Assembly (NCBI RefSeq): GCF_014698305.1
Contig: NZ_JACJST010000031.1
Location: forward strand, 1-60,800
Direction: 5' to 3'
Length of the DNA stretch: 60,800 nucleotides
From: Anabaena lutea FACHB-196
GTDB taxonomy: Bacteria; Cyanobacteriota; Cyanobacteriia; Cyanobacteriales; Nostocaceae
Below, piece by piece: positions 48,844-55,370 of this stretch. The stretch's first letter is position 1. Each line of letters opens with the position of its first letter. The notes beneath the pieces are model-generated. The model was given only the letters and a program-made list of their open reading frames with translations, made no database searches and was not told where the DNA came from. The translations under genes were made by a program, and so were the position numbers.

Positions 48844-50055
48844 ATGCGCTCTCGGCAAAGTATCCTGGAAATGTTTGCGACTTTCCTACAATTTGAAGCT
48901 GAACGCTTCAATGGTTGGGTATATGATGCCAAATTACGCCGCAGCATCCAAAATCTCTTATTACAGATACCCCAAACGCAAAACTCAGAAAATTTTTGGG
49001 CAATTTACTGGCATAAAGCTTGGCAAACTCAACCAAATTCCTTAGCGCTTGGTCATCTATCTGCGTATTTGCAAGAAACCTGTTATTGGTCTGTACAAAG
49101 AACAATTCCCCAATTTTCTAGCTTACAGAGTAGTTTATCTGATTGTTTTCAAATAGCAATTTCAGAAGTTCCCAAAATCTTAAAAGGTTGTGATCCTAAT
49201 CAAAAAGCTAGTTTAAAAAGTTATAGTGCTGTAGCTTTTGGTAATATTATTCGTGATGCTTTACGCCAAAAACAAGAAATAGATTTTTGTAATGATTGGG
49301 CATTATTGCTGAAATTAAGCCGCAAGCGACTCCAGGAAGCTTTACAAAATGCTGGGGTGACAGATGAGATTATTGCTTGTTACCTGTTGGCTTGGAAATG
49401 TTTTACAGATGGTTATATTCTGGGTAAATCACCAGGTGTCCGTAAATTACAAAAACCTGACCAAGAGACTTGGGAAACCATAACTCAACTCTACAACCGC
49501 GAATGCTTAACCCTAAACCCACCTGGGACAGAATGCAATGGGGAAACTCTAGAAAAATGGCTAGTTTTTTGTGCCAAACAGGTGCGTGCTTATCTTTATC
49601 CAGTAGTTTCTTCCCTCAACTTACCCAAGCTAGGACAAGCAGAAGGTGAATTACAAGATGATTTACCAGATAATACTCATGAATCTTTACTAACTAGTAT
49701 AATTGCTGAGGAAGAAGCCGAAACTCAAAAAAATCAACAAACAGAAATCCACAACTTGTTAATTTCGGCCTTGGGAAAACTGACTCCACAATCACAGCAG
49801 TTATTGCAGCTATATTATCAGCAAGGACTCACTCAACAACAAATTGCCCAACAGCAACAAATCCAGCAATATCAAGTTTCACGCCAATTAGCTAAAGCCA
49901 GAGAATCCCTACTGCTGGCCATTAGCAAATGGAGTCAGGAGAAAATGCATATTTCTCCAACTTCCAACGTGGTGAAATATATTAGTGCAGTGTTGGAAGA
50001 GTGGTTACAGAATTATTTTCGTAATCTGGAATCTCACTCCTCAAAGGAGAAATAG
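48844..50055 (+). CDS. Divergent sigma-70-like protein with region-4 helix-turn-helix
   Basis: The first 300 residues are helical and hard to assign (MRSRQSILEMFATFLQFEAE, RLQEALQNAGVTDEIIACYL). They replace a normal sigma region 2 or carry a strongly changed one. Residues 313-357 (LTPQSQQLLQLYYQQGLTQQ, QIAQQQQIQQYQVSRQLAKA) form a sigma region-4-type helix-turn-helix with DNA-reading helix QYQVSRQLAKARESL. Length 403. The DUF1822 gene follows after two bases with AGGAG inside the end of this gene, so they are co-translated. Cyanobacteria have families of such proteins next to DUF1822 and CHAT/CHASE2 genes. Its activity as a sigma factor is inferred, not shown. Confidence 0.75.
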   Translation: MRSRQSILEMFATFLQFEAERFNGWVYDAKLRRSIQNLLLQIPQTQNSENFWAIYWHKAWQTQPNSLALGHLSAYLQETCYWSVQRTIPQFSSLQSSLSDCFQIAISEVPKILKGCDPNQKASLKSYSAVAFGNIIRDALRQKQEIDFCNDWALLLKLSRKRLQEALQNAGVTDEIIACYLLAWKCFTDGYILGKSPGVRKLQKPDQETWETITQLYNRECLTLNPPGTECNGETLEKWLVFCAKQVRAYLYPVVSSLNLPKLGQAEGELQDDLPDNTHESLLTSIIAEEEAETQKNQQTEIHNLLISALGKLTPQSQQLLQLYYQQGLTQQQIAQQQQIQQYQVSRQLAKARESLLLAISKWSQEKMHISPTSNVVKYISAVLEEWLQNYFRNLESHSSKEK

Positions 50056-50057
50056 TT

Positions 50058-51203
50058 ATGTCTCTGTTCTGTGTCCCCCCTACCCAACTGTGGTTAGAGG
50101 TTTCTTTAGAGGTACAAAACCAATCTTGGCAGCAAAGCCAGTCTTTTGTGAGTCCTCTCGGTCGTTGGAATGCCTTTCTTAATCAAGTATGTCTCAGTAC
50201 CTTTTTGCCTTGGTTGCAAACAGAATATGCACCAGAAGCTACTTTAGAAACCCTTCCCGATATTTGGGAAGTAGTTAGCGGTACTGCTATAAATCTGGAT
50301 ACAAAGCGCCTGATTCTGATTCCAGATAAAAATTTAGAAACTAGAGAATTTCATGTTCCCCAAGAATGGATAGATATTCCTAAGTTAGCTGGAGATTATT
50401 ATCTAGCAGTACAAGTTAATCCTGATGGTGCGTGGCTGCGAATTTGGGGTTATACCACCCATGAGCAGTTAAAAAATCAAGGTAGCTATGATCCTCAAGA
50501 GAGGACTTATTCTCTGGAAGCCAATCAGATGATTGAGGATTTAAATGTGCTTTGGGTTGTACGGCAATTGTATCCTGAAGAACAAACACAAGTAGAAATT
50601 TCTCCTTTGCCTATTTTATCAGCTACCCAAGCAGAAAACCTCAAGCAGAGATTAGCAAATCCCACAATTATTAATCCTCGCTTAGAATTGCCCTTTGAAA
50701 TTTGGGGAGCATTATTAGAAAGCGAAGACTTTTTCCAACAAACACAGAATTCAACAATTGTTAATTTGCGTCAGTGGTTTGAGAATGTTGTTACCAATAG
50801 CTGGCAAACAATAGAATCTTTATTTGGTGCAGAATCAAATTTAGCCTTTAGCTTTCGTCAAACTAATGATGTTGTTGAAGAATCAATTCGACGGGTAAAA
50901 GTTATTGATTTACCTACTCAAGATGGTAATCAAGCAGTGGTATTGATGTTGACTGTGATAGCAGAAACAGATGGAAGAGTAGGAATTCGCGCTCAGTTAT
51001 ATCCGAATAATCGCAATTCTTATTTACCAACTAATGTTAGACTAGCATTGATTTCCACATCAGGCGATGTTGTGCAATCAGTAGCAGCAAGGGAAGCAGA
51101 TAATTCTATTCAACTGAAAAGGTTTCGATGTCCAGTGAATACAAGATTTAGTATTCAGGTTGCTTTAGATGATTTCACCTTCACAGAAGAGTTTGAATGT
51201 TAA
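50058..51203 (+). CDS. DUF1822 protein
   Basis: The length (381) and order FVSPLGRWNAFLNQVCLSTF, RLILIPDKNLETREFHVPQE, VQVNPDGAWLRIWGYTTHEQ, and a beta-rich tail (AVVLMLTVIAETDGRVGIRA, LPTNVRLALISTSGDV) fit DUF1822, a family seen in cyanobacteria and without known function. It has no signal peptide or membrane helix, so it should be cytoplasmic. It is two bases behind the sigma-like gene with a good AGGAG site. As the protein between a sigma-like factor and a protease, it is the natural candidate for an anti-sigma or a protease substrate. This is a hypothesis from position only. Confidence 0.8.
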   Translation: MSLFCVPPTQLWLEVSLEVQNQSWQQSQSFVSPLGRWNAFLNQVCLSTFLPWLQTEYAPEATLETLPDIWEVVSGTAINLDTKRLILIPDKNLETREFHVPQEWIDIPKLAGDYYLAVQVNPDGAWLRIWGYTTHEQLKNQGSYDPQERTYSLEANQMIEDLNVLWVVRQLYPEEQTQVEISPLPILSATQAENLKQRLANPTIINPRLELPFEIWGALLESEDFFQQTQNSTIVNLRQWFENVVTNSWQTIESLFGAESNLAFSFRQTNDVVEESIRRVKVIDLPTQDGNQAVVLMLTVIAETDGRVGIRAQLYPNNRNSYLPTNVRLALISTSGDVVQSVAAREADNSIQLKRFRCPVNTRFSIQVALDDFTFTEEFEC

Positions 51204-51304
51204 TTAAATGTCTGAATTATCTCGTTTATCTCGTTCCCAGGCTCTGACTGGGAATGCCATCACAGAGCCTCTGCCTCTGATATCATCGTTGCTAGAGCCA
51301 TAGA

Positions 51305-51410
51305 CAGAGCCTACTAAAATTCATTCTCATATAGAATATAGGAATGAGAAAATGAGAAATAGGCAGAGCCTACTAAAATTCATTCCCATACAGAGTATGG
51401 GAACGAGAAA
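51305..51410. repeat. Two tandem copies of a hairpin repeat
   Basis: CAGAGCCTACTAAAATTCAT and about 28 further bases occur at 51305-51351 and 51364-51410. The second holds a CCATAC/GTATGG hairpin. The spacer at 51226-51256 holds TCGTTCCCAGGCTCTGACTG, another common repeat. This fills the gap between DUF1822 and the CHAT gene. Confidence 0.75.
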
Positions 51411-51444
51411 TTAATTACAAATTACAAATTACAAATTACCAACC

Positions 51445-53805
51445 ATGAGTAAATTGATCGTCCTAAATTTAGGAAAAGGAAACTTACACCAAGGGTTTCC
51501 CACGGTCATAGCTCAACTTTGGCAAACGGATATTCCTAATCCCATGCAATTTACAGGTGGATTACCTGCTGCACCACAATTAGAGCATCTTTATCAACGT
51601 TGGCAACAATTGTATACAGCTTTGTATGCCAGTTTAGGATGGCGTAGTCACAACATTTCTGCATTTGAAATTGATGAAGAAGACGTTACCCATATTTCCC
51701 AAACTGAGTTTGAAAACCTCTGCCAAGAATTACAAAAAAGTCTGAATATATGGCTCAATAGTTTGCTGTTTCTGAATATTGACCGCAAACTGCGTACTCA
51801 ACTTTTACCTACAGATGAAATTCGCTGCATTATTACTTCTGAATGCCATCAAGTTTTACAGTTGCCTTGGTGTTTGTGGCATTTTTTTAATGATTACCCA
51901 TTAGCAGAAATAGCCCTCAGTCCTCCTGAATATACCCGTGCAATTAAAACCAAGCAGAGAAAGACTAATGGTAAAGTTAGAATTTTAGCTATTTTAGGCG
52001 ATCGCAATGGCATCGATCTGGAAAAAGACCAAAATTTACTTCGACAATTACCTAATGCTGAACTCAAATTTTTAGTTGAACCCAACCGTTCCCAACTTAC
52101 AGAACAATTATGGGAATCTGGTTGGGACATTCTCTTTTTTGCGGGGCATAGTTCCAGCCAAGGGAAAGGGAAAATGGTACTAAATGCTCGCGAAACTTTG
52201 ACCATTGATCAATTAAAGTATGGTTTACAAAAAGCGATCGCACAAGGTTTGCATTTAGCAATTTTTAACTCTTGTGATGGTTTGGGCATAGCAGAAGATT
52301 TAGCTGATTTGCATTTACCTCAAGTGATTGTCATGCGAGAACCTGTGCCAGACCGGGTTGCACAGGAATTTTTAAAGCATTTCCTCGCTGTTTTTTCACG
52401 AGGACAAACTTTGTATACAGCAGTTAGGGAAGCTAGGGAAAGGTTACAGTCTTTAGAACAGGATTTTCCCTGTGCTACTTGGTTGCCCGTGATTTGCCAG
52501 AATCCATCGGAAATATCGCCAACATGGCCAGATTTGTGCGGTCAGCAGTCTGGTTCACAGTTGTCACGTGCCAATTTACAACAGTTACCAATTGTTTGTT
52601 TTAGTAGTTCAATTATTACTTTTTTGATAGTATTAATACGGTTGTTTGGAGGAATGGAAGCCCTAGAAATAGGAGCATTTGATCAATTAATGCGATCGCG
52701 CCCCAAAGAACAACCAGACTCTCGGCTATTGGTTGTAACCATTACTGACCAAGATATTCAAGCCCAAGGACAAGAACCCAGACAAGGTTCACTTTCAGAT
52801 AAATATCTCAACTTGTTGCTGGCAAAACTCGAACAATATCAACCCGCAGTCATTGGTCTAGATATATACCGGGATTTTCCCGTGAGTGCCAATCAACCAG
52901 AACTAGCCAAACGGATGCAAAAAAGCGATCGCTTGATTGCTATTTGTAAACGTGCTGACCCAGAATATGACCCCACAGGCGTTTCACCTCCACCGGAAAT
53001 ACCAGAAACACGGTTGGGTTTTAGCGACTTTATCGAAGACAACGACAGTGTAATGCGCCGTCATTTGGTAGCAATGACTCCCAACCCCATCTCATCAACT
53101 TGTACACCAGCTTATGCCTTCAGCACTCGGTTAGCATTTTTATATCTGCAATCACAAGGAATCACAGCCAAATTTACACCAGATTGGGATTTACAACTAG
53201 GGAATCAAACCTTCGGACGTTTGCACAAACGAAGTGGCGGTTATCAGTCTATAGATGCACAAGGCAGTCAAATCCTGCTGAACTATCGTTTTTCACCCTC
53301 TGTGCAAGCGTTGGCTTCGCCCGCCGCAGGCATCGCCCCACAAGTTACCATGAGCCAAGTATTAAACGGGCAAATTAACCCCAATGCCGTTAAAAATCGC
53401 ATTATTCTCATTGGTGTAACCAGTAACAGCAGCAGTGATTATTGGTCTACACCATACAGTAAAAGCCCATTAAAAGTTGTACCAGGCATATTCATCCAAG
53501 CACAGATGGTGAGCCAAATTATCAGTGCTGCATTAGACAACCGACCCTTGTTATGGGTTTGGACTCAATGGGGTGAAATCTGCTGGATTTGCTGTTGGTC
53601 TTTAACAGGTGGATTACTAGGCTGGTATTTTCGGAAAATTAGATATTTAAGTATTGCGTTAGCTACGGCAATAGGCACAATATCTGGACTCTGCTTGTTC
53701 ATATTAATTCAAGGAGGTTGGATACCCTTAGTACCACCTCTAATTTGCTTAGTAGTTTCTAGCATTCAAGTTACCTATATCAGTAAAAAATTACAGAAAT
53801 TTTAG
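51445..53805 (+). CDS. CHAT caspase-like protease fused to CHASE2 sensor and three membrane helices
   Basis: The order is: an N-terminal CHAT-linked region (1-170), a caspase-like CHAT domain (about 175-355) with the catalytic pair His235 (LFFAGHSSSQG) and Cys277 (AIFNSCDGLG), and a membrane helix (about 382-401). A CHASE2 extracytoplasmic sensor follows (about 402-690: SRLLVVTITDQDIQAQGQEP, YQPAVIGLDIYRDFPV, NRIILIGVTSNSSSDYW), then three helices at the end (about 697-786). The protease is predicted on the cytoplasmic side and the sensor outside. Length 786. Both catalytic residues are present, so activity is likely. It follows sigma-like and DUF1822 genes on the same strand after 241 bases. 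Confidence 0.88.
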   Translation: MSKLIVLNLGKGNLHQGFPTVIAQLWQTDIPNPMQFTGGLPAAPQLEHLYQRWQQLYTALYASLGWRSHNISAFEIDEEDVTHISQTEFENLCQELQKSLNIWLNSLLFLNIDRKLRTQLLPTDEIRCIITSECHQVLQLPWCLWHFFNDYPLAEIALSPPEYTRAIKTKQRKTNGKVRILAILGDRNGIDLEKDQNLLRQLPNAELKFLVEPNRSQLTEQLWESGWDILFFAGHSSSQGKGKMVLNARETLTIDQLKYGLQKAIAQGLHLAIFNSCDGLGIAEDLADLHLPQVIVMREPVPDRVAQEFLKHFLAVFSRGQTLYTAVREARERLQSLEQDFPCATWLPVICQNPSEISPTWPDLCGQQSGSQLSRANLQQLPIVCFSSSIITFLIVLIRLFGGMEALEIGAFDQLMRSRPKEQPDSRLLVVTITDQDIQAQGQEPRQGSLSDKYLNLLLAKLEQYQPAVIGLDIYRDFPVSANQPELAKRMQKSDRLIAICKRADPEYDPTGVSPPPEIPETRLGFSDFIEDNDSVMRRHLVAMTPNPISSTCTPAYAFSTRLAFLYLQSQGITAKFTPDWDLQLGNQTFGRLHKRSGGYQSIDAQGSQILLNYRFSPSVQALASPAAGIAPQVTMSQVLNGQINPNAVKNRIILIGVTSNSSSDYWSTPYSKSPLKVVPGIFIQAQMVSQIISAALDNRPLLWVWTQWGEICWICCWSLTGGLLGWYFRKIRYLSIALATAIGTISGLCLFILIQGGWIPLVPPLICLVVSSIQVTYISKKLQKF

Positions 53806-54161: not shown

Positions 54162-55370
54162 ATGGTTAGTCAGGAATACATCTCTCATTGGAAACATATC
54201 CAAGAAATTTTATTAACCAATTTATTTGGATATTTACCCACAAATATTATAGGAGGCAAATTAAGAAATTTACTATATCGTAATATTCTTCATAAAATAG
54301 GTAAATCAGTTTTTCTTGAAAATAATGTTAAAATTTTTAATGCTTCTTGTATTGAAATTGGTAATAAGGTGCAAATTGCACGGAGTGTTAATTTAGATGC
54401 AAGATGGCACTCAAATAATAAAATATATTTAGCAGATGAAGTCAGCCTTGAACAAGGTGTTGATATTAGGGCATTAAACAACACTTCTATTGAGATTTAT
54501 GAAAGAACCTTTATTGGCCCTTACGTCTGTATTGCCGGACCTGGCAATATCAAAATCGGTAAAAACTGTTTAATTGCAGCACAAACAGGTTTATTTGCTA
54601 ATAATCATCTTTATTCAAATCCTACTGAAAATATTAACTCTCAGGGTGTTAGTCGAGAGGGAATTGTAATTGAAGATGATTGTTGGTTAGGCTCAGGGGT
54701 AAAAGTATTAGATGGGGTAAACATTGGAGAAGGCAGCATTATTGGTGCTGGCGCTGTTGTTACTAAAGATATTCCTCCTTTCTCTGTTGCAGTAGGTGTA
54801 CCAGCAAAAGTGATTCGCAGTCGTAAGGAATATTGCAAAGACGGCTGCCGTCTTCCTATTCTGCTCAGTACATCTCTTGCCCAAGTAGAAAAGGCTGCTA
54901 AAGTAAACTATCAACATCTCCAGAACATCAACAATACCGCCAGATGTGATTTACTTTTTAAAAAATTACTTCACTCTATCTGCGAAGTCATGAATGTCGA
55001 TACTGTTACAGTTCTGCTGCCAGCAGAAAAAGAACAACAATTATTTGTGTGTGCGACTATTGGGTTGGAGGAGGAAATTAGAGAAGGCATTCAAATTCCA
55101 TTGGGTTGTGGATTTGCAGGTAAAATAGCAACTAGTGCCAAGCGAATAATTGTAGATGATCTGTCAAAAATAGAAGTTGTAAGCCCTATTTTACGTAATA
55201 AGGGAATCCGGTCAATAATGGGTGTCCCGTTACAACTAAAAGACCAAGTATGCGGTGTCTTGCACGTTGGCAAATTTTGTCCTTACCAATTTACGAACGA
55301 TAGTGTACAGCAATTACAGCTTATTGCTGATTGTATGGGATTAGCAATTGAACCATTATTAAAAATCTAA
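54162..55370 (+). CDS. Hexapeptide acetyltransferase fused to GAF sensor domain
   Basis: Residues 45-225 form a left-handed beta-helix of hexapeptide repeats, as in O-acetyltransferases: [57 protein letters not shown], and the typical end [28 protein letters not shown]. From about residue 255 a GAF domain follows ([60 protein letters not shown]). The enzyme may be switched by a ligand or redox signal. Length 402. It heads a block with two glycosyltransferases, so the substrate is probably a polysaccharide. Confidence 0.85.

Follow-up and report, generated by a model that had tools for sequence, protein, structure and literature searches.

Why should a sigma factor, a protein of the family DUF1822 and a caspase-like protease with a sensor domain be encoded side by side? 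The question is raised by a 60,800-nucleotide stretch of Anabaena lutea FACHB-196 (contig NZ_JACJST010000031.1, positions 1 to 60,800 of the forward strand; hereafter the window), in which three genes stand in a row on one strand: a sigma-70-family gene, a DUF1822 gene whose start lies 2 bases past the sigma stop, and a gene that joins a CHAT protease domain to a CHASE2 sensor. An earlier note on this DNA had described the trio and its 2-base gap, and domain profiles bear it out for every member (TIGR02937, PF08852, PF12770 and PF05226). The same grouping is seen again in many genomes. Going beyond that note, we describe a two-lobed DUF1822 protein, a candidate cut site between the lobes and a set of exchangeable sensors.

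The note had also held that no function was described for such a set, which is not the case. In their 2021 paper, as far as its accessible text goes, Kaur, Iyer, Burroughs and Aravind (PMC8195603) describe EACC2-caspase proteins with variable sensors beside extracytoplasmic function (ECF) sigma factor and DUF1822 genes, and propose sensing, autopeptidase activation and a sigma-linked response, so that both the neighbourhood and a proteolytic reading of it were published. In that account a constant alpha+beta N-terminal module precedes the caspase domain; a variable C-terminus that includes CHASE2, and adjoining ECF-type sigma and DUF1822 genes, are common to both. In the window the CHAT domain is confirmed and follows a conserved N-terminal part of about 190 residues, which we call EACC2 after that paper, by position and gene company. 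The two accounts differ in that the text of 2021 treats DUF1822 as a TPR protein and invokes autopeptidase activation, whereas we propose the two-lobed DUF1822 as the substrate. What is new here is that DUF1822 has two lobes with separate partners, and the candidate cut site; the gene set and the general idea were already in print. Searches of the open literature combining EACC2 with caspase, or ECF sigma factor with CHASE2 and cyanobacteria, gave only that paper, and no experiment on the gene set was found in the text they reached; nor was an experiment on the family found in accessible text naming DUF1822, whose genes do appear in a table of genome differences (PMC9679502).

DUF1822 as a proposed two-lobed link between a sigma factor and a protease

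The AlphaFold2 model of the window's DUF1822 protein (mean predicted local distance difference test, pLDDT, 84.9; predicted template modelling score, pTM, 0.65) has two folded parts, a mixed alpha-beta N-lobe and an all-beta C-lobe. In the linker between them pLDDT falls below 50 at residues 228-231, 262-264 and 268-273. Relatives can be sorted by the types of their two lobes, N1 or N2 and C1 or C2, the window's protein being N1-C1. The closest relative among the best 80 of 494 is that of Anabaena catenula FACHB-362, 93% identical in DUF1822.

Of 120 genomes sampled from the order, 111 carry DUF1822, often in several copies. For the neighbourhood survey we took 60 loci from the top of the DUF1822 list, the best 80 of 494 relatives in a search aimed at N1, 40 weaker places and 40 later loci picked for a match to C1, and removed five duplicates, including two among the later 40; profiles were built from the earlier sets. 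The loci were thus partly chosen by likeness, and the named and unnamed sets may share some genomes. A neighbour was counted if it was a sigma factor of the window's class (SIG), a smaller sigma-like protein (SIG2) or a CHAT gene, on the same strand and within 3.5 kb; open reading frames (ORFs) near the end of a stretch were set aside only if nothing was found. DUF1822 standing mostly without a sigma-like or CHAT gene, the outcome against which the earlier note had staked its idea, is not what emerged: of 222 distinct DUF1822-family ORFs, 211 have one or both adjoining or fused, and 11, some of them at contig ends, have neither.

The lobes resolve which neighbour goes with which half. The type of N-lobe tracks the type of sigma protein, N1 going with SIG (130/135) and N2 with SIG2 (50/55), while among N1 and N2 ORFs an EACC2-CHAT gene adjoins those with a C1 lobe in 142 of 155 cases, compared with 0 of 29 where C1 is missing. 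The combined classes behave in the same way: N1-C1 ORFs have SIG in 108/113 and CHAT in 102/109, N1-C2 ORFs have SIG in 22/22 and CHAT in 0/21, N2-C1 ORFs have SIG2 in 43/46 and CHAT in 40/46, and N2 ORFs with no C-lobe have SIG2 in 7/9 and CHAT in 0/8. Forty ORFs had no part in building the profiles, their loci being picked for the C1 match; the N1-C1 members among them have SIG in 11/11 and CHAT in 10/11, the N2-C1 members SIG2 in 21/21 and CHAT in 20/21, and the remaining eight CHAT in 6/8. Further C1 ORFs comprise one sigma fusion (CHAT beside it), seven of a STAND class (CHAT beside two), three with a weak N1 (two) and ten with other N-parts (eight). The double association, N-lobe with sigma and C1 with protease, is clear in these counts and blurs among outlying members of the family.

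Gene spacing is operon-like, with median gaps of about 16 bases from sigma to DUF1822 (136 pairs) and about 56 bases from DUF1822 to CHAT (166 pairs), start codons being guessed in both. Taken together, the survey and the lobe associations point to one recurring module in which DUF1822 links sigma factor and protease, as the earlier note had supposed, and that the three genes work together is strongly supported.

The sigma factor of the window matches the sigma70-ECF model TIGR02937 over residues 74-357 with 113.8 bits (6.1e-33; cut-off 42.9) and belongs to the sigma-70 family. Pfam names region 4 alone (Sigma70_r4, 9.4e-8), in line with the region-4 helix-turn-helix that had been read from the sequence. 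In a modelled relative, the sigma half has two PDB matches at E of 0.001 or better, sigma models both (best 7.7e-5). Our alignment of sigma sequences, A4, holds 42 of the 74 listed together with the window's.

In the short N2 class, DUF1822 proteins lacking a C-lobe occur at L194, L196, L200, L201, L202, L204, L208 and L209. Sigma-DUF1822 pairs of type N1-C2 with no CHAT gene nearby recur across many genomes, at L033 (5304-7739, in the window's own genome on contig 62) and at 21 other loci; their C-lobe differs and ends in REILRF in those aligned. Some DUF1822 members appear by eye to hold HEAT-like inserts.

A candidate cut site and the protease that may use it

Specifically, we propose that at rest the DUF1822 N-lobe would hold the sigma factor while the C1 lobe would be tied to the membrane protein by way of its EACC2-CHAT part in the cytosol. 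Once a signal acts on CHASE2, CHAT would become active and cut DUF1822 in the disordered linker after Arg267 (LAFSFR/Q, the slash marking the cut). The lobes would then separate, freeing the sigma factor to join RNA polymerase and turn on its genes, perhaps once the N-lobe has been degraded further. In this scheme the physical contacts, the inhibitory part of DUF1822, the cut and where it falls, the triggering by CHASE2 and the regulon are inferred. The proposal as a whole, a membrane-gated proteolytic sigma switch with DUF1822 cut after Arg267 when the sensor fires, has in our judgement an even chance of being right.

In alignment A3, which holds the window's protein and 75 of the 80 loci of the N1 search (five were left out), Arg267 is invariant (76/76) between two highly variable stretches, residues 257-261 and 268-275. 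The commonest letters leading up to it are L-A-F-(S/N)-F-R, and the next residue is Q or S in 52 of 76. A linker profile built from A3 alone takes in 138 of 185 ORFs, with arginine in the Arg267 column in 121 and a gap in 17, local alignments that end early being the likely source of the gaps. Its matches span N1, N2 and STAND carriers and include none of the C2 class. Lying in a stretch that the model predicts to be disordered, Arg267 looks like a recognition motif.

The two CHAT residues that the earlier note had picked out, His235 and Cys277, do not vary in any of the 133 sequences of the CHAT alignment (the window's and 132 from fetched loci), which argues for a working protease. Residue 195, which by eye comes after the first strand of the protease and ahead of its first helix, is aspartate in 125 and glutamate in 7 of the 133 (acidic in 132/133). 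The accessible text of PMC4626109 puts the anchor of proteases that cut after a P1 arginine in this place; in gingipain-R it is an aspartate that holds the P1 arginine, and separases are acidic there too. Judged from its position in the sequence, residue 195 would appear to be a candidate S1 anchor for a P1 arginine.

The note had also counted four membrane helices in this protein. Hydropathy gives three 19-residue peaks above 1.5, starting at residues 383, 737 and 762. Two more, at 678 (1.40) and 711 (1.08), are weaker, so that four helices are plausible and not established.

Exchangeable sensors and fused C1 lobes

CHASE2 is one of several exchangeable sensors on the EACC2-CHAT core. In a tree of the core with 123 rows, CHASE2 follows it in 98, another sensor in 21, and 4 are unassigned; the tree implies 9 changes between CHASE2 and other sensors and 10 to 12 changes of partner type, counts to be read with caution where long branches meet. 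Behind the core we find Peripla_BP_6 in three proteins, including the contig 12 paralogue of the window's genome; nSTAND1, with WD40 in L044 and L207 and with a GUN4-like part below the Pfam cut-off in L053; and NB-ARC, TPR or COP23 with trypsin, while L060 has no further domain. In the window's genome CHAT exceeds the cut-off at 14 places, and there are 7 places with CHASE2 and 3 with DUF1822; CHAT adjoins DUF1822 both in the window and on contig 12.

The output side varies as well. At L175 a single frame of 649 residues, followed immediately by an EACC2-CHAT gene, matches the sigma profile in its residues 15-444 (2e-42) and the C-half of DUF1822, that is C1, in residues 516-647. At L174, L176, L178 and L180 the C1 lobe terminates proteins with NB-ARC or NACHT-type STAND NTPase domains named by Pfam; length (659-660 residues), linker and C-lobe assign L173, L177 and L179 to that class as well. 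Across these sigma-like and STAND fusions, C1 is thus swapped between outputs. We tentatively suggest, while leaning somewhat against it, that the C1 lobe with its arginine linker may be a portable "cut-me" tag for EACC2-CHAT receptor-proteases, with interchangeable sensors (CHASE2, periplasmic binding proteins, STAND NTPases) and interchangeable outputs (N1, N2, sigma itself, STAND NTPases).

STAND domains also bear on a different explanation, in which the CHAT protein is a conflict or cell-death effector: a stimulus would lead to self-processing of EACC2-CHAT and then to other targets, with the sigma factor and DUF1822 only regulating expression. This is near the autopeptidase proposal published for such neighbourhoods (accessible text of PMC8195603), and STAND NTPases serve as sensors in some relatives and are fused to C1 in others. 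However, no invariant arginine was found in the linker between CHAT and CHASE2, residues 349-382, in 105 aligned sequences, and Arg399, conserved in 97 of 105, falls in the first predicted membrane segment; self-cleavage within residues 349-382 is therefore not indicated, although a cut after some other residue is possible. PADLOC, moreover, has no match for DUF1822 or the CHAT protein and a weak one for the sigma protein (E 0.0074, residues 310-355), and the tight pairing of sigma with DUF1822 would be left unexplained. We consider an effector of this kind unlikely.

How the proposed proteolytic switch fares against its alternatives

Several observations weigh against the switch, or against the associations from which it is drawn. 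Five N1-C1 ORFs have no SIG and seven no CHAT. Among divergent ORFs outside N1 and N2 and without a recognised C1, 9 of 10 have CHAT nearby (the whole-family profile still covers a C-half in several of the divergent ORFs, L185, L192, L195 and L198). In the STAND class, 5 of 7 C1 ORFs lack a CHAT gene within 3.5 kb. Within N1 the tree needs only 1 to 4 changes between C1 and C2, and a test on independent pairs has one supported pair (p 1); with so few changes the C1-CHAT association there may go back to one event. SIG2 is weakly sigma-like: TIGR02937 matches 6 of 9 members (best 4.1e-5), one member scores 19.6 bits against the cut-off of 42.9, and a profile-profile comparison of SIG2 with SIG is likewise weak (21.7% probability). 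In the L175 fusion Pfam confirms the DUF1822 part and names no sigma domain, and the linker profile has no match.

Compared with the PDB at E 0.001, neither the fold of DUF1822 nor its profile has a match: the best by fold (0.004) is among weak ones that include Ig-like and other beta-rich proteins, and the best by profile (0.36) is unrelated. Kinship of DUF1822 with a known anti-sigma factor is accordingly not supported. Sigma and DUF1822 were co-folded from a natural stretch, L109, where both genes are in frame, read through the single stop between them; the alignment comprised L109 and 66 other rows, from 6 more read-throughs and 30 separate sigma and DUF1822 pairs. The read-through form reached a pTM of 0.55, by which binding is neither shown nor excluded.

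Could DUF1822 be an adaptor or a positive cofactor, recruiting the sigma factor to the membrane receptor, with signalling by conformation and CHAT cutting the sigma factor itself or nothing? In favour of this, the co-fold neither shows nor excludes sigma binding. The 22 N1-C2 pairs with no CHAT nearby are another point, as they imply a role of DUF1822 with sigma alone, and in that CHAT-less class the equivalent-looking motif still has arginine in 19 of 22 (lysine in 1, motif not found in 2), so the arginine may be structural or may serve another protease. What the adaptor leaves out is the catalytic dyad, whose invariance argues for a working protease, and the likeness of an invariant arginine in a predicted-disordered stretch to a recognition motif. 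We think an adaptor improbable.

Alternatively, the genes may be neighbours through shared ancestry and have separate jobs. In the window 241 bases that hold repeats (51204-51444) separate DUF1822 from CHAT, and within N1 the tree offers too few independent contrasts. Against this stand parallel contrasts in two N-lobe types, with CHAT where C1 is present and without it where C1 is absent, the loci L139 and L168, which are rearranged yet still linked, the sigma-like fusion to C1 beside a CHAT gene, and the short median gaps. Mere adjacency by descent is very unlikely indeed.

Comparison with known sigma and CHAT systems

The logic of the proposed switch is the same as that of Csx29-Csx30-CASP-sigma (PMC10028731), CalpL-CalpT-CalpS (PMC11417357) and HetF-PatU3 (PMC12288457), so far as the accessible texts describe them; membership in any of these systems is not supported. 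In type III-E CRISPR, the CHAT protease Csx29 (TPR-CHAT) is likewise paired with a two-part inhibitor that is cut in a flexible loop before its C-terminal part: according to the text of PMC10028731 at hand, the N-terminal domain of Csx30 binds the ECF-like CASP-sigma, the cut falls at residues 427-429, and how it frees the sigma factor is left unclear. The trigger described there is a target RNA sensed through Cas7-11, with no membrane sensor. Homology of DUF1822 to Csx30 finds no support in the PDB comparisons at E 0.001 by fold or profile, the presence of Csx30 in the PDB copies used not having been checked.

CalpL resembles the proposed switch in that a sensor-protease cuts an anti-sigma factor and frees an ECF sigma factor. 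It differs in being a Lon-type protease with a SAVED domain that senses cA4, and a CHASE2-type membrane sensor is not described in the accessible text (PMC11417357). HetF, also from a filamentous cyanobacterium, Anabaena, is a membrane CHAT protease that cleaves PatU3, and PatU3 limits HetZ, which regulates gene expression positively (available parts of PMC12288457 and PMC8406250). In the accessible text of PMC8406250, however, HetF is drawn with CHAT, one transmembrane segment and TPRs, CHASE2 is not named, and the system has no sigma factor. Against the HetF equivalog of NCBIfam the window's CHAT protein scores 22.6 bits (residues 200-284) where the cut-off is 1200, which places it outside that family.

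Features of the locus and its surroundings

The features of the window are collected in the table.

Features of the sigma-DUF1822-CHAT locus of Anabaena lutea FACHB-196 (positions in the window)
Feature	Position	Strand	Basis
Sigma-70 family (ECF-like) sigma factor, 403 aa, class SIG	48844..50055	+	TIGR02937, Sigma70_r4
DUF1822 protein, 381 aa, type N1-C1, predicted proteolytically switched sigma partner	50058..51203	+	PF08852 4.4e-107, whole profile
DUF1822 N-lobe, residues 11-220, type N1, mixed alpha-beta	50088..50717	+	Fold model, neighbour association
Flexible linker, residues 222-275, with W-motif and LAF(S/N)FR motif	50721..50882	+	Low pLDDT, motif
Arg267 codon, candidate cleavage site (P1)	50856..50858	+	Invariance; cleavage inferred
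DUF1822 C-lobe, residues 276-380, type C1, all-beta	50883..51197	+	Fold model, neighbour association
Two 57-base direct repeats, 86% alike	51295..51410	.	Within the DUF1822-CHAT gap
EACC2-like domain, CHAT protease and CHASE2 sensor, predicted membrane protein, 786 aa	51445..53805	+	Pfam, hydropathy
N-terminal domain, about residues 1-190, at the described place of EACC2	51445..52014	+	Conserved pre-CHAT part in relatives
Asp195 codon, candidate acidic S1 anchor for a P1 arginine	52027..52029	+	Position, by-eye comparison with PMC4626109
CHAT caspase-like domain, residues 201-346	52045..52482	+	PF12770 6.1e-16
Catalytic His235 codon	52147..52149	+	CHAT alignment, 133/133
Catalytic Cys277 codon	52273..52275	+	CHAT alignment, 133/133
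CHASE2 sensor domain, residues 392-724	52618..53616	+	PF05226 4.1e-66

Besides its direct repeats, the gap between DUF1822 and CHAT holds a 28-base inverted repeat. It is weakly conserved, with little in common to nine relatives aligned across it. Promoter footprinting on 14 upstream regions gave a poor alignment except near the sigma start, and we claim no promoter motif.

The flanking genes in the scan are a P-type ATPase and a hexapeptide-GAF protein. The latter, the next gene downstream (54162-55370), has the odd combination of a hexapeptide-repeat part and a GAF domain; ORFs beyond it look glycosyltransferase-like by eye. At other loci the CHAT gene is often followed by a DUF928 gene (PF06051) with a start that by eye resembles a signal peptide, for example L107 10471-11244, L075 3483-4247 and L174 9781-10557 (e-44 to e-63). 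In the window and the loci from L093 up, DUF928-like genes stand at 37 N1-C1 loci, 12 of 25 N2-C1 loci and 4 of 13 others. The DUF928 protein could be a periplasmic partner of the sensor; the window's own downstream gene is a different one. TPR-like genes, again with signal-peptide-like starts by eye, lie near several loci (L154 9654-12212, where the product has TPRs and CHAT; L078 8159-10870), in all at 27 N1-C1 loci of those examined and 8 of 25 N2-C1 loci, and their products are possibly targets or partners.

Implications

The prediction of a cut after Arg267 that is lost with Cys277 makes both the function of DUF1822 and the proposal of 2021 directly testable. If the switch works as proposed, these cyanobacteria would wire many outside signals to transcription through a caspase-like receptor. 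If C1 is in addition a portable tag, the EACC2-CHAT proteins would be a general class of one-piece receptor-caspases that carry a transmembrane signal to transcription. They would add a route to those of two-component systems and of the stepwise intramembrane cutting of anti-sigma factors.

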